Shown in pieces: positions 1-8,905 of a DNA stretch of 8,905 nucleotides (positions within the stretch are counted from its first letter, which is position 1; each line of letters starts with the position of its first letter). Source of the stretch: Clostridia bacterium (GTDB lineage: Bacteria; Bacillota_E; RBS10-35; JAJYVN01); the NCBI GenBank assembly GCA_027335515.1, contig DAHWHT010000103.1:1-8905 (forward strand). The letters run 5' to 3'. Below the pieces are notes generated by a model that was given only the letters and a program-made list of their open reading frames with translations, was not told the origin of the DNA and ran no database searches. Both the position numbers and the translations under genes were made by a program.

Positions 1-1940
1 GACAGGGCATCCAGCACCCAGTTACGCAGGTCCTGGGTGTGGGCGCCCGGGAAGAGGGCCGCGAAGTGGGCGGCCGCGGCCGTCTGTTCCAGCGGCGCGT
101 CGTCGCGAAGGGCTTCCAGAACCTCTTTGGCCGCCGTGGCGCGCTCCTGCACTCCAACCGGTTCGCGCGGCGGGACCGCAACCAGCGACGAGAGCCACTG
201 GGCGTATGCGGTGCCGCCGAGATCGAGCAGGTAGGTGTGGGCCTCCGGGGTGGAACTACCCGGCAGCGTGGTGCTCCATCCGTCCACCCGGCGGAAATTC
301 AGCAACTTCAGCATATGGGCCAGTTCCGGGATGCCGGTGCAGGCGACCACGCGGTCGTAGCGGCCGAAATCGGCGCAGACCTCGCGCAGCAGGGCACCGC
401 TCAGTCGCGCGTCCGGATGGAGCAGGCACAGGTGCATACAGGCGAGCAGGCGCCCGTCCCATTCGGTCCGTTCCCGGTCGCTGAGGGTCAACAGCCATTG
501 ACCGAGCAGGGGATGGCCAAGGAGGAACGGCGCGGTGGCCTGTGTCCAGGCCAAGCTGGCGCAGTACCCAAGGATCTCCCCCGACGTGCCGCGCGCCAGC
601 AGCAGAGCCGCCGGATGGGCGGACACCAAGCGTTCGCCCCAGGAAAACACATCCGGCGGCACGCCCTCCAGGCGTCCCTCGTAAAAGACGCCGCTGAGGG
701 TGGCACGCAGGCACGCCAGCACACCGGGCAGATCCTCCCGCGTGGCGCCGCGCTCGAAATGCCACCCGATGCGCCCCTCGGCGGCCGGGTGCAACCATGT
801 GTGCCAGAGCGTGTGGGCCGCGAGGTCGGTGATCGCGTCCCAACAGGACCCGTCGTCTTCTCCCCGTTCCATCCCGGCCGCCCGCCGCAGACAGTAGGCG
901 ATGGCGCGGGTCCGGCAGCGGTGCACGGTCCACGGCCGATTGCGGCGGGAAACGTCGCGGATGGGTTCGCGCACCGCGTCGTGGAGCGCATAGCGACCGC
1001 CCACCTGGGTGGTCGCCGGCAATTCGGCGAGCGCGTCCCAGGCACGCGCGACGGTCGCCTCGCTCAGCATGGCTTCGAGCAACGGCCGATCAAAGCTGCG
1101 CACTTGAGCCGCCGCCGCGAGGACGGCGCCGACCTCCGGCACGGTGTGGTCGGACACCCACTGCTCGATCATCTCCGCCGCCAGGGTGGCCCTGGTCGTA
1201 CGGCCCACTTGGCGCAGCACGCGCGATCCGTCATCGGCGGACCCCTGCCGAATACAGATGTCCGCGGCCAGATGCAGCAGCAGCGGTTGGCCGGCCGCCA
1301 ACGCCAGGATCTCCTCGGATGTGCTGCGACTGCGAATGCCGCGCAACCGCAAGAGCTCCAGCGCGTCCTCGCGTCCCAGCTGCTTCAGGGCGACGCGCCG
1401 GACCGCCTCCTGCCAGGCCGGTTCTCCCGGCCAGGCTTCGGATGGGGCCAGCCGGCTCGCCAGGATCAGGCATGTCCCGGGGCCGAGCCTGGTCAGAAGG
1501 ATACTGCGCAGCCAGCGCTCACAGCTTCGCAGCTTCTCATAGGCGTCAATTTCCAGGACCAGCCCGCCGGCGCCCGCGGCGGCGTTGAACGCGGCAATGA
1601 TCGCGGGGGCCGCCGCCGGTACGGGTGGGGACGCGGGGTTCAGGCCGGAGGCGGCCTGCGCCAGACCGCGCAGCAATCCCTCGGGGCTGTGCTCCATGAG
1701 CCCACCGTCCATGGCCACGACCGCCATGCCCAGGGCACGCGCCGCAAGGTGGTAGGCGCGCAGCAGGGCGGACTTGCCGATACCGGACGGTCCATACACA
1801 TACGCGAGCCCGGGATGGTCACGGGTCCCGGCCAGCAGGTCCGGTAACAGCCTCAGCTCATCCCGCCGGCCGACAAAGAGCCGGGCCTCCGCTGCGGCCA
1901 CGAAAGCGGCCAGATCCTCGGAAGCCGCTGGGCGTTGCAT
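1..1940 (-). CDS. AAA_16/STAND-type ATPase with GNAT-like C-terminal region (3' end cut by window edge)
   Basis: The open frame starts at ATG 1940 and is still open at base 1, giving 646 visible residues. An 'LFVGRRDEL' motif (21-29) and a Walker A 'GPSGIGKS' (50-57) mark an AAA_16/STAND-type NTPase. 'GLVLEIDAYEKL' (126-137) fits a Walker B. Residues 185-330 read like the helical/winged part of such ATPases, ending in 'YALHDAVREPIRDV'. Around 390-560 the pattern changes: 'LLARGTSGEILGYCASL' and later 'LLREVCADFGRYDRVVA...LLNFRRV' look like the strands and acetyl-CoA-binding helix of a GNAT acetyltransferase. Residues 600-646 may begin a further helical or winged-helix domain. By family knowledge such proteins are signal-sensing or regulatory NTPases; the ligand and output are unknown. 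No signal peptide or membrane segment is visible, so it is probably cytoplasmic. It follows the DUF916-like gene on the same strand. The ATPase call is firm; the GNAT call is inference from pattern. Confidence 0.85.
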   Translation of the reverse strand, partial: MQRPAASEDLAAFVAAAEARLFVGRRDELRLLPDLLAGTRDHPGLAYVYGPSGIGKSALLRAYHLAARALGMAVVAMDGGLMEHSPEGLLRGLAQAASGLNPASPPVPAAAPAIIAAFNAAAGAGGLVLEIDAYEKLRSCERWLRSILLTRLGPGTCLILASRLAPSEAWPGEPAWQEAVRRVALKQLGREDALELLRLRGIRSRSTSEEILALAAGQPLLLHLAADICIRQGSADDGSRVLRQVGRTTRATLAAEMIEQWVSDHTVPEVGAVLAAAAQVRSFDRPLLEAMLSEATVARAWDALAELPATTQVGGRYALHDAVREPIRDVSRRNRPWTVHRCRTRAIAYCLRRAAGMERGEDDGSCWDAITDLAAHTLWHTWLHPAAEGRIGWHFERGATREDLPGVLACLRATLSGVFYEGRLEGVPPDVFSWGERLVSAHPAALLLARGTSGEILGYCASLAWTQATAPFLLGHPLLGQWLLTLSDRERTEWDGRLLACMHLCLLHPDARLSGALLREVCADFGRYDRVVACTGIPELAHMLKLLNFRRVDGWSTTLPGSSTPEAHTYLLDLGGTAYAQWLSSLVAVPPREPVGVQERATAAKEVLEALRDDAPLEQTAAAAHFAALFPGAHTQDLRNWVLDAL

Positions 1941-1941
1941 C

Positions 1942-2289
1942 CTAACTGTCCTCCGCAGAGAGCGAGTTGCCGCCACGAGTAGTCCGAAGCGCGCGGATCG
2001 GCCGCCGGAGGCCCACCTCGTTGCGCGCCGGCCGGTGGGGACGCGTCCGCCGTCGGTGTGTCCGCCCGCCTAGCCTGGGGCCGCGTCGTTCCCGCCCGAT
2101 CGGCACGGCTTGGGGCGGGCCCGCGTCCTGCACCCAACCAGGAACGGCCCGATCCGGGCGCGCCCACCGCGCATCCCTCGACCCTGCACGACGCCGACGC
2201 CGAGGGCGCGGGGCCGCGGCTGAGATCGGCGGAAGCGGCGGCCGGGGTGGCGGAGCGATCCCAGAAACCAAACCGCCGGCTCCGTTCAT
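1942..2289 (-). CDS. Doubtful Arg/Pro-rich ORF filling the gap between two genes (115 codons)
   Basis: This is the only content found in the 345-base gap between the DUF916-like gene and the ATPase gene. Its ATG overlaps the upstream stop as ATGA, and its TAG ends one base before the ATPase ATG, so the spacing is that of a translationally coupled operon gene. Against it: there is no Shine-Dalgarno sequence, the product is mostly Arg, Pro and Gly with no hydrophobic core, signal peptide or known motif, and G/C at third codon positions is only about 73%, no better than the base composition. A second frame stays open across the same stretch with similar figures. I recognise no family. The most likely reading is non-coding or poorly conserved spacer DNA that happens to be open. 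Confidence 0.22.
   Translation of the reverse strand: MNGAGGLVSGIAPPPRPPLPPISAAAPRPRRRRRAGSRDARWARPDRAVPGWVQDAGPPQAVPIGRERRGPRLGGRTHRRRTRPHRPARNEVGLRRPIRALRTTRGGNSLSAEDS
1949..1954 (-). promoter_or_regulatory. Shine-Dalgarno site of the ATPase gene
   Basis: On the minus strand GGAGGA lies 8 bases before ATG 1940. It fixes this ATG as the start over the in-frame GTG further upstream, at roughly -36. No convincing -10/-35 promoter is visible just upstream, so the gene may be read through from the DUF916-like gene. Confidence 0.7.
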
Positions 2290-3338
2290 GGGTCGCCGTC
2301 CGACGCCCCGGGGTCGACGCCGTCCGAAGGATGCGGTGTGATCTTCCCGCGCCGCCGGCCGACCAGCCACCAGACCGCCGCGATCCCCGCCGCCGTGCCC
2401 GCGCCACGCATCAGGGCCCACCAAAGGGACGCACGGTGCGGTATCGCCACCTGCGGGCCACGGTAGGTCGGGCCCGCGGTACCGCCGATGTCCGTGGCGA
2501 CCAGCGGTGCGGCAGCCAGGCGACCCCATGCCTGTGGAGGGGTCCATACCGCGTGAAGCAGCGCGTGGCCGCCGGGTACCACATACAGGTTCGCCGGGCC
2601 CGTGGTCGCGACCGCGATCTCGCGCCCGCGCGCGTCCAGGATACGCACCCTGCCGTGAAGCGAGAGGCTGACGTTCCCACGGTTTTCAACGGGCAGGCTG
2701 AATGCGACCACACCCCGCCGATCGTCGGCACGCAGCCGGTGGACGATCAGGCGCGGCCGGGCGCTGCGCACGACATCCAAATCGACGATCAGGGCGGTGC
2801 GGAAGGCCACGGCCAGTCCGTGGGTGGAGGCTCCCGTCAGCCCGGCGGCCACCACGGCCCCGCTATACCTGCCGGGCTGAACCTCCGGCGGCACGGCCAG
2901 CCGGAAGGGGACGACCACCCGGCCTACGGCGGGCACGGTGGCGGCGGCGTGGAGGCGAAGCCAGGCACCGACCGTTCGCATGCGGGCGCCCTGCTGCAGC
3001 GGCGCCACCCCGCCGCCGGGAACGGGCGCCAGATCCGCGCCGTAGAGGCGGATGCGCACCCCTCGCCCGCGCGCGTCCTGCACGGCCACGGCGTCTGAGA
3101 TCTCTGCGCCGGCCGGCAGCGCGTACGTGAAATGGCCGTTGGGAAGGGACGTTTCGCCCACAAGTGCCGGTCGGATGCTCCAACCGACCTGGCCAGCCGT
3201 CGACGGGGCCGGATGGTGCGCGGCCGCCATGGCGACACCGGAGGGGACGTACAGACCGAGTACGAGCGCGCACACCGCACAGGCAAGGAGGGCCGGGGCA
3301 TGGCTGCCGAATGCCGGCCGGTCGCGGACACCGTCCAC
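2286..3338 (-). CDS. Secreted membrane-anchored protein with DUF916/WxL-interacting-like ectodomain
   Basis: 350 residues from GTG 3338, chosen for its strong Shine-Dalgarno sequence and because the signal peptide then sits at the N terminus. The frame is open further upstream, but that part is arginine-rich and not signal-like. Residues 13-40 form a hydrophobic signal peptide ending 'GVAMAAAHH'. Residues 65-170 carry the pattern of the DUF916 (WxL-interacting, peptidoglycan-binding) fold: 'FTYALPAGAEISDAV', 'RIRLYGADLAPVPGGG', 'VGAWLRL', 'VVPFRLAVPPEVQPGRYSGAVVA'. Residues 190-285 look like a second Ig-like beta domain ('VENRGNVSLSLHGRVRI'). A transmembrane helix at about 305-326 ('LWWALM...AAVWWLV') is followed by 'GRRRGK' and a short hydrophilic cytoplasmic tail. 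The expected topology is an outside ectodomain with a single membrane anchor. In Gram-positive relatives such proteins bind peptidoglycan or partner surface proteins; no WxL partner is visible here. Family assignment is from motif pattern only. Confidence 0.85.
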   Translation of the reverse strand: MDGVRDRPAFGSHAPALLACAVCALVLGLYVPSGVAMAAAHHPAPSTAGQVGWSIRPALVGETSLPNGHFTYALPAGAEISDAVAVQDARGRGVRIRLYGADLAPVPGGGVAPLQQGARMRTVGAWLRLHAAATVPAVGRVVVPFRLAVPPEVQPGRYSGAVVAAGLTGASTHGLAVAFRTALIVDLDVVRSARPRLIVHRLRADDRRGVVAFSLPVENRGNVSLSLHGRVRILDARGREIAVATTGPANLYVVPGGHALLHAVWTPPQAWGRLAAAPLVATDIGGTAGPTYRGPQVAIPHRASLWWALMRGAGTAAGIAAVWWLVGRRRGKITPHPSDGVDPGASDGDP

Positions 3339-3344
3339 GGCGGT

Positions 3345-3352
3345 CTCCCTCC
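3345..3352 (-). promoter_or_regulatory. Shine-Dalgarno site of the DUF916-like gene
   Basis: GGAGGGAG on the minus strand ends 6 bases before GTG 3338. It decides the start over the longer open frame, which would add 70 arginine-rich residues and bury the signal peptide. Confidence 0.7.
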
Positions 3353-3467
3353 GCTGCCAACGTCCCCTCAAATGACTCGGGCCCGCAGATCCACTGGCCA
3401 CGGCACTATTCTCGCCCGGACTGGATGTTCCTGCCGTTTCACCACGCTCTTCAGACTTGGCGCAGGA

Positions 3468-3484
3468 GGCGGCGGTCCGCCGCC
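3468..3484 (-). promoter_or_regulatory. Perfect 8-base inverted repeat (hairpin) in the 5' leader
   Basis: The arms 3468-3475 and 3477-3484 are exact reverse complements around one central base. As RNA this folds as a very stable 7-bp G/C stem with a 3-base loop. It lies 130 bases before the GTG of the DUF916-like gene on the transcribed side. No U-run follows, so it is not a classical terminator. It may be a leader element, a protein-binding palindrome or a chance G/C repeat. Confidence 0.4.
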
Positions 3485-3643
3485 GAGCGTCACCCACGAA
3501 CAGGGACGTCCGGCCGGATAGCCACAACCGCGGCCGTCTGGTAGCCATAGGCAGACATCGCGCCGATCACCCAGCCAAACAACGACTTCACCGCGCACCG
3601 CAACGACCGAGCGAACGGGCCGTGCTCCGTTCTGGAAAACCGC

Positions 3644-5057: not shown

Positions 5058-5507
5058 TCAGTCGCTTCGAATGTCCGGTTCGACGAGGATCTCGACGTTG
5101 CCGCGCAGGGCCCGCGAGACCAGACAATACTCCTCGGCCTGCACCGCCGCGCGGCGGGCCCGCTCGACATCCGCCCCGCGGGCGAGGCGCACGGTGGGTC
5201 GGTGCACCAGACGCACGACCCGCAGCGGCGGGCCGACGTCGACCGTGAGTTGCGAACGCAGTGCGACGTCGGCGGCGAGCGGCAGGCGCATCCGCTCCAG
5301 CAGGGCCGCCAGGGTGATGGCGTAGCAGGTGGCAGCGGCGCTGGCCAGCAACTCCTCGGGGTTGGTGCCGCTGCCCGGCCCCCCAATGCTGGCCGGCACG
5401 CTCACCGCGGTCTGCATCCCCCCGGCACGGACCGTGCCCGCGCCGAGCCTGCCACCCTGCCACTCCAGATCAATATCAAATCTATGTTCGCGCTCCGGTT
5501 CCGGCAT
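5058..5507 (-). CDS. OsmC/Ohr-family peroxiredoxin
   Basis: 149 residues from ATG 5507, a normal family length. The family signature is clear: 'GTNPEELLASAAATCYAITL' (48-66 region) places the first redox cysteine at C61, and 'AEEYCLVSRAL' (124-134) places the second at C128. The pair is expected to reduce organic hydroperoxides by a cysteine cycle in the cytoplasm. The C-terminal 'NVEILVEPDI' is also typical. The 'EEYCLVSRAL' motif resembles the OsmC/YhfA side of the family more than Ohr, which usually has Cys-Pro at this place. The start is preceded by a run of seven Gs that can pair with the CCCC just before the ATG, so the ribosome site may be partly masked. It is middle gene of a probable operon, 43 bases after the phosphodiesterase gene. 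The substrate is unknown. Confidence 0.93.
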   Translation of the reverse strand: MPEPEREHRFDIDLEWQGGRLGAGTVRAGGMQTAVSVPASIGGPGSGTNPEELLASAAATCYAITLAALLERMRLPLAADVALRSQLTVDVGPPLRVVRLVHRPTVRLARGADVERARRAAVQAEEYCLVSRALRGNVEILVEPDIRSD

Positions 5508-5550: not shown

Positions 5551-6249
5551 TCAAGCGCCCCCGGTGTCGGGCTCGACGCGGCCCAGCAGGCCTAAGAGCA
5601 GGTCGGGGCGATCGCTCGCAATGCCGTCCGGCCGCAGCGCGAGGCAGCGACGCTGATCGACAACCGTATTGGGGGTCCAGAGCCACAACCCCAGACCGGC
5701 CGCCCGCGCCTGGGCGCGCAACTCCGGCGTGCAGGCGGCGAAATAGACGCCAAGTTCCTGGATTTCCGCCGCCTTGCAGCGTTCCACGGCGTCGGCCGGC
5801 AACTGATGAAACAACGCGGACGTCTGCATGCCGATCGTCGCGGCGGGGGCGAGACATTCCAGGTGAAAGCTGATGAAGGAGACGTGCGGACGCAGGCCGA
5901 GGGCGGTGACCTCGCGCAGGGCGGGTTCGGCGCACGCATCCTCCTTGAGCTCGATGAGGAGCGGTACCGTGCCACCGACGGCCTCCAGCACCTCCCCCAG
6001 CAAAGGGATGCGCGCGCCACCGCCGGCTTCCAGCCGCTGCAACTCCGCGAAGGTCAGGTCCGCCACATTGCCATGCCCGTCGGTGGTACGGTCGACCGCC
6101 GCATCGTGGATGACGACCAGCCGGCCGTCCCGGGTGCGGCGCACGTCGCATTCCAGGGCATCGACGCCGAGGGCGAGGGCACGGTGGAAAGCCTGAAGCG
6201 TGTTCTCCGGTTCGAGTCCGGCGCAGCCACGATGGCCGATGACCTGCAT
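5551..6249 (-). CDS. Glycerophosphodiester phosphodiesterase (GDPD family, UgpQ-like)
   Basis: 232 residues from ATG 6249. The enzyme hydrolyses glycerophosphodiesters from phospholipid head groups to glycerol-3-phosphate and an alcohol, with a divalent metal in a TIM barrel. The active-site set is complete: 'IGHRG' (H6, R7) and 'PENT' (14-17), 'ECDV' (E33, D35), 'VIHD' (H48), 'LIELKED' (E100), and the C-terminal 'DGIASDRPDLLL'. There is no signal peptide, so it is a cytoplasmic UgpQ-type and not a periplasmic GlpQ-type enzyme. The start was chosen because the family normally begins with 'xxIGHRG'. In-frame ATGs at 6285 and 6333 would add 12 or 28 basic residues, and 6333 has a better Shine-Dalgarno sequence (GGAAGG), so the N terminus is uncertain. 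It is the first gene of the GDPD-OsmC-GT4 run and diverges from the amidase-like gene. Confidence 0.93.
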   Translation of the reverse strand: MQVIGHRGCAGLEPENTLQAFHRALALGVDALECDVRRTRDGRLVVIHDAAVDRTTDGHGNVADLTFAELQRLEAGGGARIPLLGEVLEAVGGTVPLLIELKEDACAEPALREVTALGLRPHVSFISFHLECLAPAATIGMQTSALFHQLPADAVERCKAAEIQELGVYFAACTPELRAQARAAGLGLWLWTPNTVVDQRRCLALRPDGIASDRPDLLLGLLGRVEPDTGGA

Positions 6250-6442
6250 GGTGTGTTTGTACCATGGGGACGCGCGCGGCGCCATGGCTTCGTGTATGGG
6301 GCGCCTCGCCGCCTGCCGCCTCCTGCCGGCCATGGACGCCCTTCCGATCAGGGCCGCGGCAGGACGATGCCCACCGTCGCGGAAAGGGTCGGGCGACGAC
6401 CCGGGAAAAACGGCGGCGGACCGTCCGAGGGGAGAGATCCCG
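6250..6442. promoter_or_regulatory. Divergent intergenic region with a 6-base inverted repeat (6386-6402)
   Basis: These 193 bases separate the divergent GDPD and amidase-like genes and should hold both promoters. No good -35/-10 pair is visible on either strand. The clearest element is the inverted repeat GGGTCG (6386-6391), a 5-base spacer, CGACCC (6397-6402), 40 bases before the amidase-like ATG. It could be an operator or leader hairpin; no regulator is assigned. The space would shrink to 109 bases if the GDPD gene starts at 6333. Confidence 0.35.
6427..6434 (+). promoter_or_regulatory. Shine-Dalgarno site of the amidase-like gene
   Basis: GAGGGGAG ends 8 bases before ATG 6443. It supports this start over an upstream in-frame extension of 81 codons that overlaps the divergent GDPD gene and has no family similarity. 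Confidence 0.65.
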
Positions 6443-7036
6443 ATGGCAACCCAGCGACCGCGCATCCTGCTCAACCCGTCATGCCAATACGGCAACCGCA
6501 TCCTCGGTCCCGAAGGCGAGGAGTGGTACAACGAGGGCATCGAGATGTATCGTCTGGCGTTGCGCGTGGGGCACCACCTGACCGCCGACGGTCGCTGCGA
6601 GGTCGCCATGACACGCCAGGGGGAAGCGAGCCCGTCGCTGCTGGCCGATGAGATGGCGATGGCGCGCGCCTCCCAGGCCGACATCATGCTGGCGATCCAC
6701 TCCAACGCACCGGGCCCGAGCAACCCCGAGGGGCGGGGTCAGATCACCTTCTTCCGAAACGACGACGCGGAAAGCAAGCGGCTGGCGACGGCCGTGCACG
6801 AGGCCCTGCTCGCGGCCACCCGCGAGGTCTACCCCCAGGTTCTGGACCGTGGGGTCGCCACCCATCCCAAGCGCCTGACCGCCCTCTGGGACCCGGGGAT
6901 GACGAGCACCCTGGTGGAGGTCCTCTACCACACCCACCCGCTGGAACGCCCCCTGCTGCGCGATCCTTCTTTCCAGGACCGCGCCGGCAAGGCCCTTGCC
7001 GTCGGCCTCCTCCACTACCTGCTGCCGGTCGGCTGA
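6443..7036 (+). CDS. Amidase_3-type N-acetylmuramoyl-L-alanine amidase homologue with altered zinc site
   Basis: 197 residues, starting at ATG 6443. The fold signature is that of Amidase_3: 'VAMTRQGEASPSLLADEMAMA' region (54-74), 'QADIMLAIHSNA' (78-89) with zinc histidine H86, 'GQITFF', and 'STLVEVLYHTHP' (155-166) with the catalytic glutamate E159. A glutamate in 'GEEWYNE' (E27 most likely) fits the second zinc ligand. The first ligand motif, normally Asp-Pro-Gly-His-Gly-Gly, reads 'NPSCQYGN' (11-18), so the usual histidine is missing. I recall a related Pro-Ser-Asn-Gln variant in other Amidase_3-like proteins, which suggests a subfamily rather than a damaged gene. There is no signal peptide, cell-wall-binding domain or membrane segment, so it would remain in the cytoplasm unless released by lysis or another route. 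The true substrate is uncertain. It is the only plus-strand gene in the window. Confidence 0.85.
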   Translation: MATQRPRILLNPSCQYGNRILGPEGEEWYNEGIEMYRLALRVGHHLTADGRCEVAMTRQGEASPSLLADEMAMARASQADIMLAIHSNAPGPSNPEGRGQITFFRNDDAESKRLATAVHEALLAATREVYPQVLDRGVATHPKRLTALWDPGMTSTLVEVLYHTHPLERPLLRDPSFQDRAGKALAVGLLHYLLPVG

Positions 7037-8304
7037 GCACCGACGCCCGCTTCGCCCAGAAGACCGCGGTCGCGCACGGCCCGCATGTGAGCCAGACGGA
7101 CGGCGTAGGGCAGCGTGCTGCGCGCCGAGGGATTGGGCGCCGCGAACTCGGCAATCCCGGCCACCGTCTGGCGGATCTGGAACCCAAAATCCACCGGCGC
7201 CGAGGGACGCAACCCGGCGTAGGCCCGATAGACCCGCTTTCCGAGCAGGACGACGAGGCGCGGCCGCAGCCGGGCCACCTTGGCACGCAGGGCCGCGCCG
7301 CCCGCCGCGAACTCGGCCGGGTCCAGGTCCTGCTCCCCCCGAGTGGCACGGGTAACGACGTTGGTGATGCCGATTCCGAACCGAGGCAGCCGGCCGTCCT
7401 GCGCCGGATCGAGCCGCCGCGGGGTCAGCCCGCCGTCGTGCAGCAACGACCAAAAGTGGTTGCCGGGACCGGCGAAATGGTGGCCCGCCACCGCACTTGC
7501 CCGGCCGGGATTGATGCCCACGAACAACCAGACGAGCCCGGGCGCGACCACATCCGGGAGGGTGAGGTCGAGCCATTCGCCCCGCCGCAACTCGGCCAGC
7601 GCGGGCATCTCCAGGGCCCGCGCCCCCAGGAGCGCCCAATCGACCACGGCCGGCTGCGGGCGCCCATTCCGCGTCCGGTGCACGCCCTGGGGCGTCGCAA
7701 TCCAATCGACCCGCAGGTCGTGCGCCTGGTCCAACAGGGAGGGCAGCACCTGGGAAGGATGTACCGTGGTGACCACGGGAACCGGGGGCAGGCCGAGCCG
7801 GCGTAGCGCCGCATACTCCAGGTCCGCAAACCCCTCCCCCTTGCCCGCCCGTGTCCCGTCCATCCCGACGGCCACCGAACCGACCACGACGAGTTCCGGC
7901 GGCGGTGCTCCGCGGCCCTGGGCCACCGCGGCGAGGTCCACGCAGCGGCCAAACTGGCCCCGCGTGCCCAACCGGGCCGCTGCGGCCTCCTGGCCGGCCG
8001 GCACGTCTGCGGGGTCGATGCGCAGAAACGGACCGGACAGGCGAGCGGCGGCAAGATACAGCGTCTTGCCGTCGCGCAACGCCATCGCGCGCACGGGCGC
8101 CTGGGCGGCGTCCGGGTTCACCTTCAGGGCGCGGGCCCGTTGGTAGACGTCCAAGGATCGCAGTTGTTCGGCCGCCGCCTGCGCTCCGCTGAAGTTCGGG
8201 ATGCGGCCCTCGGGCGGAAACGGGAAGCGGGCCGCCTTGGCCTCGCGCAGCCGGCGGTAGGCCAAGGCGCGCGCCTCGTCCTTGGACGGGCGCCCTTGGC
8301 CCAC
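7015..8304 (-). CDS. Fusion: MTHFSD-like 5-formyl-THF cyclo-ligase (COG0212) domain + TDG/Mug DNA glycosylase
   Basis: 429 residues from GTG 8304. Residues 15-215 match the COG0212/MTHFSD-like family: 'RFPFPPEGRIPNFSGAQAA', 'VNPDAAQAPVR', 'VVVGSVAVGMDGTRAGKGEG' with 'ADLEYAALRRLG', 'TTVHPSQV', 'HDLRVDWIATP'. True cyclo-ligases make 5,10-methenyl-THF from 5-formyl-THF with ATP; paralogues of this type may lack that activity. Residues 257-415 are a full-length TDG/Mug glycosylase, which removes U or T from G mismatches: 'VGINPG' with catalytic Asn N265, 'GHHFAGPGNHFW' (274-285), 'FGIGITNVVTRAT' (309-321), 'LLGKRVY' and the insertion loop 'NPSARS' (391-396). A 40-residue linker (216-256) joins them. 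The open frame is continuous, with no frameshift. It follows the oxidoreductase gene by 51 bases and overlaps the convergent amidase-like gene by 22 bases. Both domain calls are strong; a joint function is inference. Confidence 0.93.
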   Translation of the reverse strand: MGQGRPSKDEARALAYRRLREAKAARFPFPPEGRIPNFSGAQAAAEQLRSLDVYQRARALKVNPDAAQAPVRAMALRDGKTLYLAAARLSGPFLRIDPADVPAGQEAAAARLGTRGQFGRCVDLAAVAQGRGAPPPELVVVGSVAVGMDGTRAGKGEGFADLEYAALRRLGLPPVPVVTTVHPSQVLPSLLDQAHDLRVDWIATPQGVHRTRNGRPQPAVVDWALLGARALEMPALAELRRGEWLDLTLPDVVAPGLVWLFVGINPGRASAVAGHHFAGPGNHFWSLLHDGGLTPRRLDPAQDGRLPRFGIGITNVVTRATRGEQDLDPAEFAAGGAALRAKVARLRPRLVVLLGKRVYRAYAGLRPSAPVDFGFQIRQTVAGIAEFAAPNPSARSTLPYAVRLAHMRAVRDRGLLGEAGVGAQPTGSR

Positions 8305-8355: not shown

Positions 8356-8905
8356 TCAGAGGGGGAGCGACACGGGCGCACCCGTCTCCAGGGCACGGTT
8401 CACCGCCAGGGAGAGTTCCAGCGCGTCAACCCCCGCGGCATAGGAGCAGCGCACGGACTGCGGGTCGCGCGCCCGAACGGCGCGCAGGAAGTCGGTCAAC
8501 ATGGCCGTCTCGGAATCGTTGGCCGTCGTCCAGGTCTCGCTGCCGGCTGCGGTGGCGACGGTCAGCGAACGCCTGCGCACATAACGAATGTTCGCGTCCC
8601 GGCAAAAGACCTCGAGTCCACCCGGCACCAGTTCCCGCACCTGCAGGTAGCAGGCCGACGTGATCACCGCGACCACGCCGCTGGCGAACTCCACGGTGGC
8701 CGCCGACGCGTCTTCGATATCCCGACCGCCGTCCGGGGGCAGAATGCCGCGCACCCCGGAGGCAAAGACGCGTCGGGCCGGACCGAACAGGTGGCGCGCC
8801 AAATCGAAGACATGGGTCGTCTGCTCGACGGCCTGACCGCCGGATCGGTCGCGACGAACCCACCACCCCCCCGGGCTGCCCCCCATCCATTGCCCGAAGA
8901 CGACG
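8356..8905 (-). CDS. Gfo/Idh/MocA-family oxidoreductase, C-terminal part (5' end cut by window edge)
   Basis: The frame is open from the right edge to TGA at 8356-8358, giving 183 residues; the N-terminal Rossmann domain lies outside the window. The visible start 'GGSPGGWWVRRDRSGGQAVEQTTHVFDLARHLFG' (in two motifs: Trp-Trp followed by Ser-Gly-Gly, then Glu-Gln-Thr-Thr-His-x-x-Asp) is the substrate-side catalytic region of the C-terminal domain, where the His and Asp act in NAD(P)-dependent oxidation or reduction of a sugar or cyclitol. 'DIEDASAATVEFASGVVAVI' and 'TAMLTDFLRAVRARDPQSVRCSYAAG' are the normal closing elements of the family. The substrate cannot be told from this part. An ATG at 8886 is only an internal methionine. 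It is upstream partner of the fusion gene on the same strand. Confidence 0.9.
   Translation of the reverse strand, partial: VVFGQWMGGSPGGWWVRRDRSGGQAVEQTTHVFDLARHLFGPARRVFASGVRGILPPDGGRDIEDASAATVEFASGVVAVITSACYLQVRELVPGGLEVFCRDANIRYVRRRSLTVATAAGSETWTTANDSETAMLTDFLRAVRARDPQSVRCSYAAGVDALELSLAVNRALETGAPVSLPL

Follow-up and report, generated by a model that had tools for sequence, protein, structure and literature searches.

The enzyme 5-formyltetrahydrofolate cyclo-ligase (5-FCL) has a group of paralogues that are described, in the excerpts available of three papers, as non-5-FCL and thiamin-linked (PMC3223725, PMC4120688, PMC5041015). The entry for this group reads 'Not a 5-FCL enzyme; involved in thiamine salvage', and the same excerpt reports no detectable 5-FCL activity for it (PMC3223725); a 2014 paper, likewise in excerpt, called its specific biochemical function unknown (PMC4120688), and the title of Pribat et al. 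2011, as quoted in excerpts of citing papers, extends the group to all domains of life (PMC4120688, PMC5041015). In the Mug/TDG-type (family 2) enzymes of the uracil-DNA glycosylase (UDG) superfamily, the asparagine of motif 1 has a water-positioning role, according to an excerpt of PMC5387724. Here we analysed a gene that joins a 5-FCL-like domain to a glycosylase of this type in a single protein. It lies in a stretch of 8,905 nucleotides (the window) covering positions 1 to 8,905 of contig DAHWHT010000103.1, from the Clostridia bacterium assembly GCA_027335515.1. The gene and its parts are the following, with residue conservation given for 88 fused proteins:

7015..8304, minus strand: whole fused gene, 429 amino acids plus stop, GTG start
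7690..8256, minus strand: 5-FCL-like domain, Pfam PF01812 (5-FTHF_cyc-lig), residues 17-205; E 5.4e-15, 56.2 bits against a cut-off of 27
8185..8208, minus strand: GRIPNFSG, residues 33-40; R34 and N37 in 86/88, P36 in 87/88, G40 in 88/88
8101..8124, minus strand: KVNPDAAQ, residues 61-68; D65 is aspartate in 88/88
7813..7845, minus strand: GKGEGFADLEY, residues 154-164, corresponding to the nucleotide site GxGxGYYD of canonical 5-FCL
7555..7689, minus strand: junction, residues 206-250; W223, M233 and P234 in 88/88, W244 in 87/88
7087..7554, minus strand: Mug/TDG-type (family 2) glycosylase domain, Pfam PF03167 (UDG), residues 251-406; E 9.1e-21, 74.9 bits against a cut-off of 24.3
7504..7518, minus strand: motif 1 GINPG, residues 263-267, with the catalytic-type asparagine N265 in 88/88
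7111..7137, minus strand: motif 2 region PNPSARSTL, residues 390-398; N391, P392, S393 and R395 in 88/88

A first-pass annotation of this DNA had read the gene as one uninterrupted frame with two complete domains, each with its signature motifs. This was borne out, as both domains scored above their Pfam cut-offs and the motifs were kept in an alignment of 88 rows, made of the window protein and 87 of the 120 matches listed. These 120 were the best of 241 hits obtained at E <= 1e-10 in the main search, where about 8,000 candidates sharing most words were scored, as was also done in a search from the divergent family member P0086. At least 87 relatives (P0001-P0087; P0083 is flagged as partial in its source) matched the query over at least 86% of its length and carried both Pfam domains, with identities of 48-95%, and the search from P0086 led us to two further fused proteins, P0239 and P0240. 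The gene starts at the same place as P0001, the closest among the matches listed (95% identical), and the G-rich stretch GGGGGAGGGGG is located seven bases before its GTG start codon. Seven fused proteins came with an organism name: those of Thermaerobacter marianensis DSM 12885, Thermaerobacter sp. PB12/4term, a Thermaerobacter metagenome-assembled genome (MAG; P0088, partial), two Limnochordales MAGs and two Bacillota MAGs. All seven belong to Bacillota, Thermaerobacter and Limnochordales having been placed by NCBI taxonomy.

The median pairwise identity over 3,828 pairs was 0.656 for the N-terminal half (N-half) and 0.644 for the C-terminal half (C-half), meaning that the two change at the same pace; judged from the conserved residues, constraint acts on both. 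Within the N-half, D65, R72, G154, G156, G158, Q185, D196 and D200 were invariant in the 88 proteins, K155 and D161 were kept in 87 of them, and residue 67 was alanine in the window as opposed to proline in 82.

The N-half has the 5-FCL fold, yet by its sequence it is not a canonical 5-FCL, because it scored 16.1 bits in the TIGR02727 equivalog model, whose cut-off is 84.9. In place of the canonical GxGxGYYD and of the EIxT glutamate, the window protein has GKGEGFAD and PDAAQ, and the aspartate of the latter (D65) aligns with the glutamate of the canonical EIET/EIPT stretch in a profile of 23 stand-alone proteins; in human 5-FCL this glutamate is E61. Nearly all N-half signatures of the fused proteins were shared by 28 stand-alone proteins (P0102, P0115, P0120 and P0241-P0265), the exceptions being a glutamate instead of P205 in 23 of them and an asparagine instead of H182 in seven. 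The N-half also grouped with stand-alone 5-FCL-like proteins in our N-half trees, which include no canonical 5-FCL; in the tree of 76 rows, P0246 and P0261 fell outside the main stand-alone group. The first-pass annotation had called cyclo-ligase activity doubtful, and both the missed TIGR02727 cut-off and the excerpted descriptions of the paralogue group as non-5-FCL (PMC3223725, PMC4120688, PMC5041015) strengthen that doubt. As for the C-half, its fold is that of Mug/TDG, to which it is nearer than to the other UDG families listed.

The two domains meet at a nearly fixed distance. Domain architecture, clade distribution and a conserved linker had been seen in the first-pass annotation as checks on the fusion, and all three uphold it: to the set of at least 87 two-domain relatives, with every named one in Bacillota, is added a distance from M233 to N265 of 33 residues in 86 of the 88 proteins. 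By comparison, the loop G119-G142 within the N-half ranged from 17 to 53 residues across the same 88. Stand-alone N-type proteins stop shortly past the same MPxL helix and stand-alone glycosylases have a short lead-in followed by the same core; on this comparison, the fusion is a joining of end to start with little added. The predicted model of the fused protein had a mean predicted local distance difference test (pLDDT) score of 91.6, with residues 211-250 at 80-86, and a predicted template modelling (pTM) score of 0.79. In this model the helix 234-242 continues into the glycosylase, and many TDG alignments extend back to residue 232-236 of the fused protein. For two domains of similar size, a pTM of 0.79 suggests that the predicted halves have a defined mutual placing.

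The phylogenetic analysis comprised a glycosylase tree of 83 rows, with 32 fused proteins (the window, 30 of the 87 and P0146) and 51 short ones; a first N-half tree of 31 fused and 29 stand-alone proteins; and a second N-half tree in which 76 of 77 rows were used, as P0240 was dropped for absence of the cut marker. In the glycosylase tree and in the 76-row N-half tree the outgroup did not fall on one side of a branch. All 32 fused glycosylase halves, together with 13 short proteins, formed one group (support 87/64), itself nested in a 62-row group (99/96) with stand-alone glycosylases. On the N side (76 rows), the 31 fused proteins and three short ones formed one group (90/84) adjoining stand-alone proteins, and a single clade of the fused proteins with P0092 and P0095 was not rejected by the approximately unbiased (AU) test (p-AU 0.361). 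Where they carry an organism name, the stand-alone proteins beside the fused group on this side are from Bacilli, the class of genera such as Caldalkalibacillus, Pontibacillus and Rossellomorea. The simplest reading of these trees would be one fusion, followed by later splits or losses.

Such splits and losses would have taken several forms. P0093 has an internal deletion within the N-half; P0127 and P0128 retain no more than a remnant of the linker; P0123 and P0130 carry leaders unrelated to the N-half; P0124 and P0129 keep the junction behind unrelated leaders; and P0246 kept the N-half alone. P0092, with the N-half only, and P0122, with the glycosylase only, both list an 11,055-base contig and are each sister to the fused P0020, so that they are probably the two pieces of one split gene. 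The other short proteins (P0090, P0121, P0125, P0126, P0134 and P0095) might owe their length to a contig edge, a frameshift or the way the start was called. As evidence of loss we set aside P0091, P0095, P0090, P0125, P0126, P0134 and P0146, which are edge-cut or frameshifted.

Taken together, our data make it fairly probable that a gene fusion in one Bacillota-related lineage combined a working glycosylase with a working ATP-dependent 5-FCL paralogue, the two being loosely linked. The fusion would most simply have been made once and inherited thereafter in that lineage. The C-half, as a family 2 glycosylase, would remove uracil or thymine opposite guanine, or related damaged pyrimidines, from DNA, its motif 1 asparagine positioning the water and its NPSxR loop plugging the gap left by the flipped base. 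Cytosine deamination is established chemistry, and the need for excision of uracil and thymine might be greater because of the high GC content and of high growth temperature, the latter presumably being that of Thermaerobacter. The N-half would bind ATP at GKGEG..D and might use it to phosphorylate or ring-close a small heterocycle that is probably not a folate. With the end-to-start joining, the last helix of the N-domain may have become the lead-in helix of the glycosylase, holding the halves as one unit, and the loose link between them could consist of co-expression, of co-localisation or of a common involvement in repairing and salvaging damaged heterocycles.

In this reading, the two domains, the conserved motifs, the shared grouping in the trees and the near-fixed junction are observed in the fused family; the activity of both halves, their substrates, their rigidity and the functional link we infer. 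Several observations weigh against it. The wider stretch T204-N265 is less fixed than M233-N265 (63 residues in 79 of the 88 proteins, range 58-78), and the window is one residue shorter than most there. The nodes that unite the fused proteins are moderately supported (87/64 and 90/84), and the fused label does not mark a clean clade, since the starred branches need at least eight changes in the glycosylase tree and at least two in the N-half tree because short proteins are nested inside the fused group. The N-half of the window is more diverged than is typical, with a median identity to the others of 0.56 compared with 0.62 for the C-half. The C-half missed the NCBIfam cut-offs for Mug, in curated models narrower than family 2 (TIGR00584, 328 positions long and matched over 115-237, 106.1 bits against 402.6; NF007570, 95.7 against 144), and its motif 2, NPSARST, differs from NPSGLSR in Mug and MPSSSAR in TDG. 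Finally, P0093, P0123/P0130, P0124/P0129 and P0127/P0128 lack the N-half or have it truncated, implying that in these relatives the fusion is dispensable for the glycosylase; an obligatory functional link is made less likely by these proteins, in which the glycosylase half seems to persist on its own.

Other explanations must be weighed against a loosely linked pair of working enzymes. That two genes were joined by an assembly or sequencing artefact has next to no chance: two relatives (P0091 and P0095) do look frameshifted, with nothing of the kind in the window itself, but at least 87 separate protein clusters share the junction, and the pattern of GC by codon position is even through the N-half, the junction and the C-half of the gene. 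The first-pass annotation had named two observations that would tell against a genuine fusion, namely halves that are always separate genes elsewhere, indicating an assembly error, and a single-strain oddity with one domain decayed. Both readings fall because of the at least 87 fused relatives, two of them on contigs above 2.8 Mb (Thermaerobacter marianensis, 2.84 Mb; Thermaerobacter sp. PB12/4term, 2.82 Mb), and the window shows no decay of either half. We consider it unlikely that the N-half is non-catalytic, serving as a scaffold or as a DNA- or partner-binding extension of the glycosylase; the near-fixed junction and the helix 234-242 that leads into the glycosylase in the predicted model would agree with such a role, but most signature residues of the N-half vary no more than they do in the 28 stand-alone relatives, and family-wide the N-half evolves no faster than the glycosylase.

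A direct coupling, in which the N-half works on the base or nucleotide released by the glycosylase, or on ring-opened (formamide-bearing) bases, through an ATP-driven ring closure analogous to that of 5-FCL, is attractive for its chemical analogy but appears quite unlikely; the first-pass annotation had raised a reworking of the released base or nucleotide as its alternative. It would fit the constant 33 residues between M233 and N265, the nucleotide-site motif kept in the N-half and the excerpts tying the paralogue group to salvage of another heterocycle, thiamin (PMC3223725, PMC4120688). Against it stand the several relatives that have a glycosylase without a whole N-half, the probable split pair P0092/P0122 and the common occurrence of N-type proteins as separate proteins. 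It is very improbable that the C-half has become an N-glycosidase of small molecules, or a domain that binds bases, in the service of a thiamin-related role of the N-half, as could be proposed from a motif 2 loop unlike those of Mug and TDG and from the thiamin link of the group in the excerpted papers (PMC3223725, PMC4120688, PMC5041015). Equally little can be said for an N-half that gauges folate one-carbon status and adjusts uracil repair to a shortage of deoxythymidine monophosphate (dTMP). The first-pass annotation had offered a rationale of this folate/dTMP kind, and the 5-FCL fold and the kept nucleotide site would allow it; it has little support, given that the N-half missed the canonical 5-FCL model by the margin described above and probably belongs with a group assigned to thiamine salvage and without detectable 5-FCL activity in the excerpt of PMC3223725.

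The loosely linked fusion remains the explanation that we prefer; as a long shot, it could also be taken as a Rosetta-stone clue, whereby 5-FCL paralogues would use ATP to close or sanitise opened heterocycles that bear a formamide group (pieces of broken-down thiamin, or bases or nucleotides with an opened ring), an activity here built into a base-excision repair enzyme. If that were true, damaged bases would be repaired or recycled at the site of excision in this lineage. The stable fusion with a DNA repair enzyme that is well understood makes the role of 5-FCL paralogues testable, with proteins from thermophiles among others, and constitutes a physical hint toward heterocycle damage rather than folate.

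Besides the 88-row alignment, we had alignments of the window with 57 of the 87 fused proteins (A1, 58 rows), of 23 stand-alone N-type proteins (A2) and of 27 glycosylases (A3). Scans of viral contigs with P0024 and with A1 gave no relative. Among 108 matching plasmid records, none reached 80% query coverage at one place, and each of the ten matches listed had one half only. A scan of genome contigs with 120 pattern matches yielded only a stand-alone N-type locus of Kiloniellales (L001, query 7-240), the single-protein patterns used being probably too narrow. A1 matched 137 of 299 genomes of the phylum of genome G001, many of the matches being weak cross-matches to 5-FCL or UDG; with at most six candidates scored per genome, no match spanned both halves, and N-type and C-type matches never lay within 100 kb on one contig. 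At one locus (L002, G001:C95:12796-13248) a UDG-superfamily match is contained in a 735-amino-acid open frame, which may represent another UDG fusion architecture.

In the window, the fused gene is flanked by two genes assigned by Pfam:

8356..8904, minus strand: upstream neighbour, a GFO/IDH/MocA oxidoreductase of which the C-terminal part lies inside the window
6323..7036, plus strand: convergent neighbour, Amidase_3 N-acetylmuramoyl-L-alanine amidase

The oxidoreductase gene is on the same strand, with 51 bases between the two, and is a possible operon partner; the amidase gene and the fused gene lie tail to tail, with ends overlapping by 22 bases. Clustering with thiamin genes has reportedly been found for part of the 5-FCL paralogue group; no thiamin gene was detected among the eight proteins scanned with Pfam and NCBIfam in this short window. 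Further along, positions 5058-5507 (minus strand) encode a protein of OsmC type, nearest to the SACOL1771 peroxiredoxin subfamily (125.5 bits against a cut-off of 166.15). A 390-amino-acid frame at 5551-6723 (minus strand) has a glycerophosphodiester phosphodiesterase domain at residues 164-375; its first 150 or so residues match no family, so that the true start is probably further in. The 420-amino-acid frame at 2286-3548 (minus strand) had no Pfam or NCBIfam match at E 0.01 and, from a hydrophobic segment seen by eye near its C-terminus, looks like an exported, membrane-anchored protein. The start of a long AAA_16/STAND-type ATPase protein that extends past the window occupies 3-1976 (minus strand); antisense to it, a 614-amino-acid open frame at 3-1847 (plus strand) is probably a by-product of the GC content of about 71%, at which frame length alone means little.

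The pairing of the two domains is apparently undescribed, as the first-pass annotation had supposed: literature searches on the pairing or on the host gave no description, and the fusion is not mentioned in the excerpts available of PMC5167688, PMC5906474 and PMC3877243. The architecture is new and its component families are known; it is already visible in databases, where both Pfam domains are precomputed on public fused proteins, and apparently undiscussed. Ten fused proteins carried source names: nine (P0003, P0007, P0020, P0024, P0028, P0046, P0055, P0079 and P0088) are named as 5-formyltetrahydrofolate cyclo-ligase, the tenth as hypothetical protein. This poses a naming problem, as the cyclo-ligase label conceals the glycosylase.

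In comparison with known systems, the fused protein shares with the Mug/TDG enzymes (E. coli Mug, 1mug; human TDG) a common fold, the GINPG motif with its catalytic-type asparagine, the GPGN-FW segment and the position of motif 2, at 30-34% identity; it differs from them in having a whole additional enzyme domain at the N-terminus and a motif 2 loop of its own, NPSxRST. The canonical 5-FCL/MTHFS enzymes (YqgN, 1ydm; human, 3hxt; B. anthracis, 2jcb) are more distant from the N-half. The window model is 15-18% identical to 1ydm, the structure of YqgN, the usual 5-FCL of B. subtilis; the canonical GYYD is GFAD in the window, and the glutamate of EIET/EIPT is an aspartate. Much closer are the stand-alone 5-FCL-like proteins (12 with organism names, among them those of Caldalkalibacillus, Pontibacillus and Rossellomorea, labelled 5-formyltetrahydrofolate cyclo-ligase by their sources), which are 47-54% identical to the N-half of the fused P0086. 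They share with the fused proteins RIPNF.GA, NPD..Q, GKGEG..D.EY, the closing tryptophan and MP.L, whereas they have no glycosylase, end shortly past the MPxL helix and have TE in the position of T204-P205 in 23 of 28 cases. The motifs of At1g76730-type proteins are like those of the N-half. On this likeness of motifs the N-half is a probable member of the thiamin-linked COG0212 (MTHFSD-like) paralogues treated by Pribat et al. 2011, to which At1g76730 belongs; the first-pass annotation had placed it there as well.
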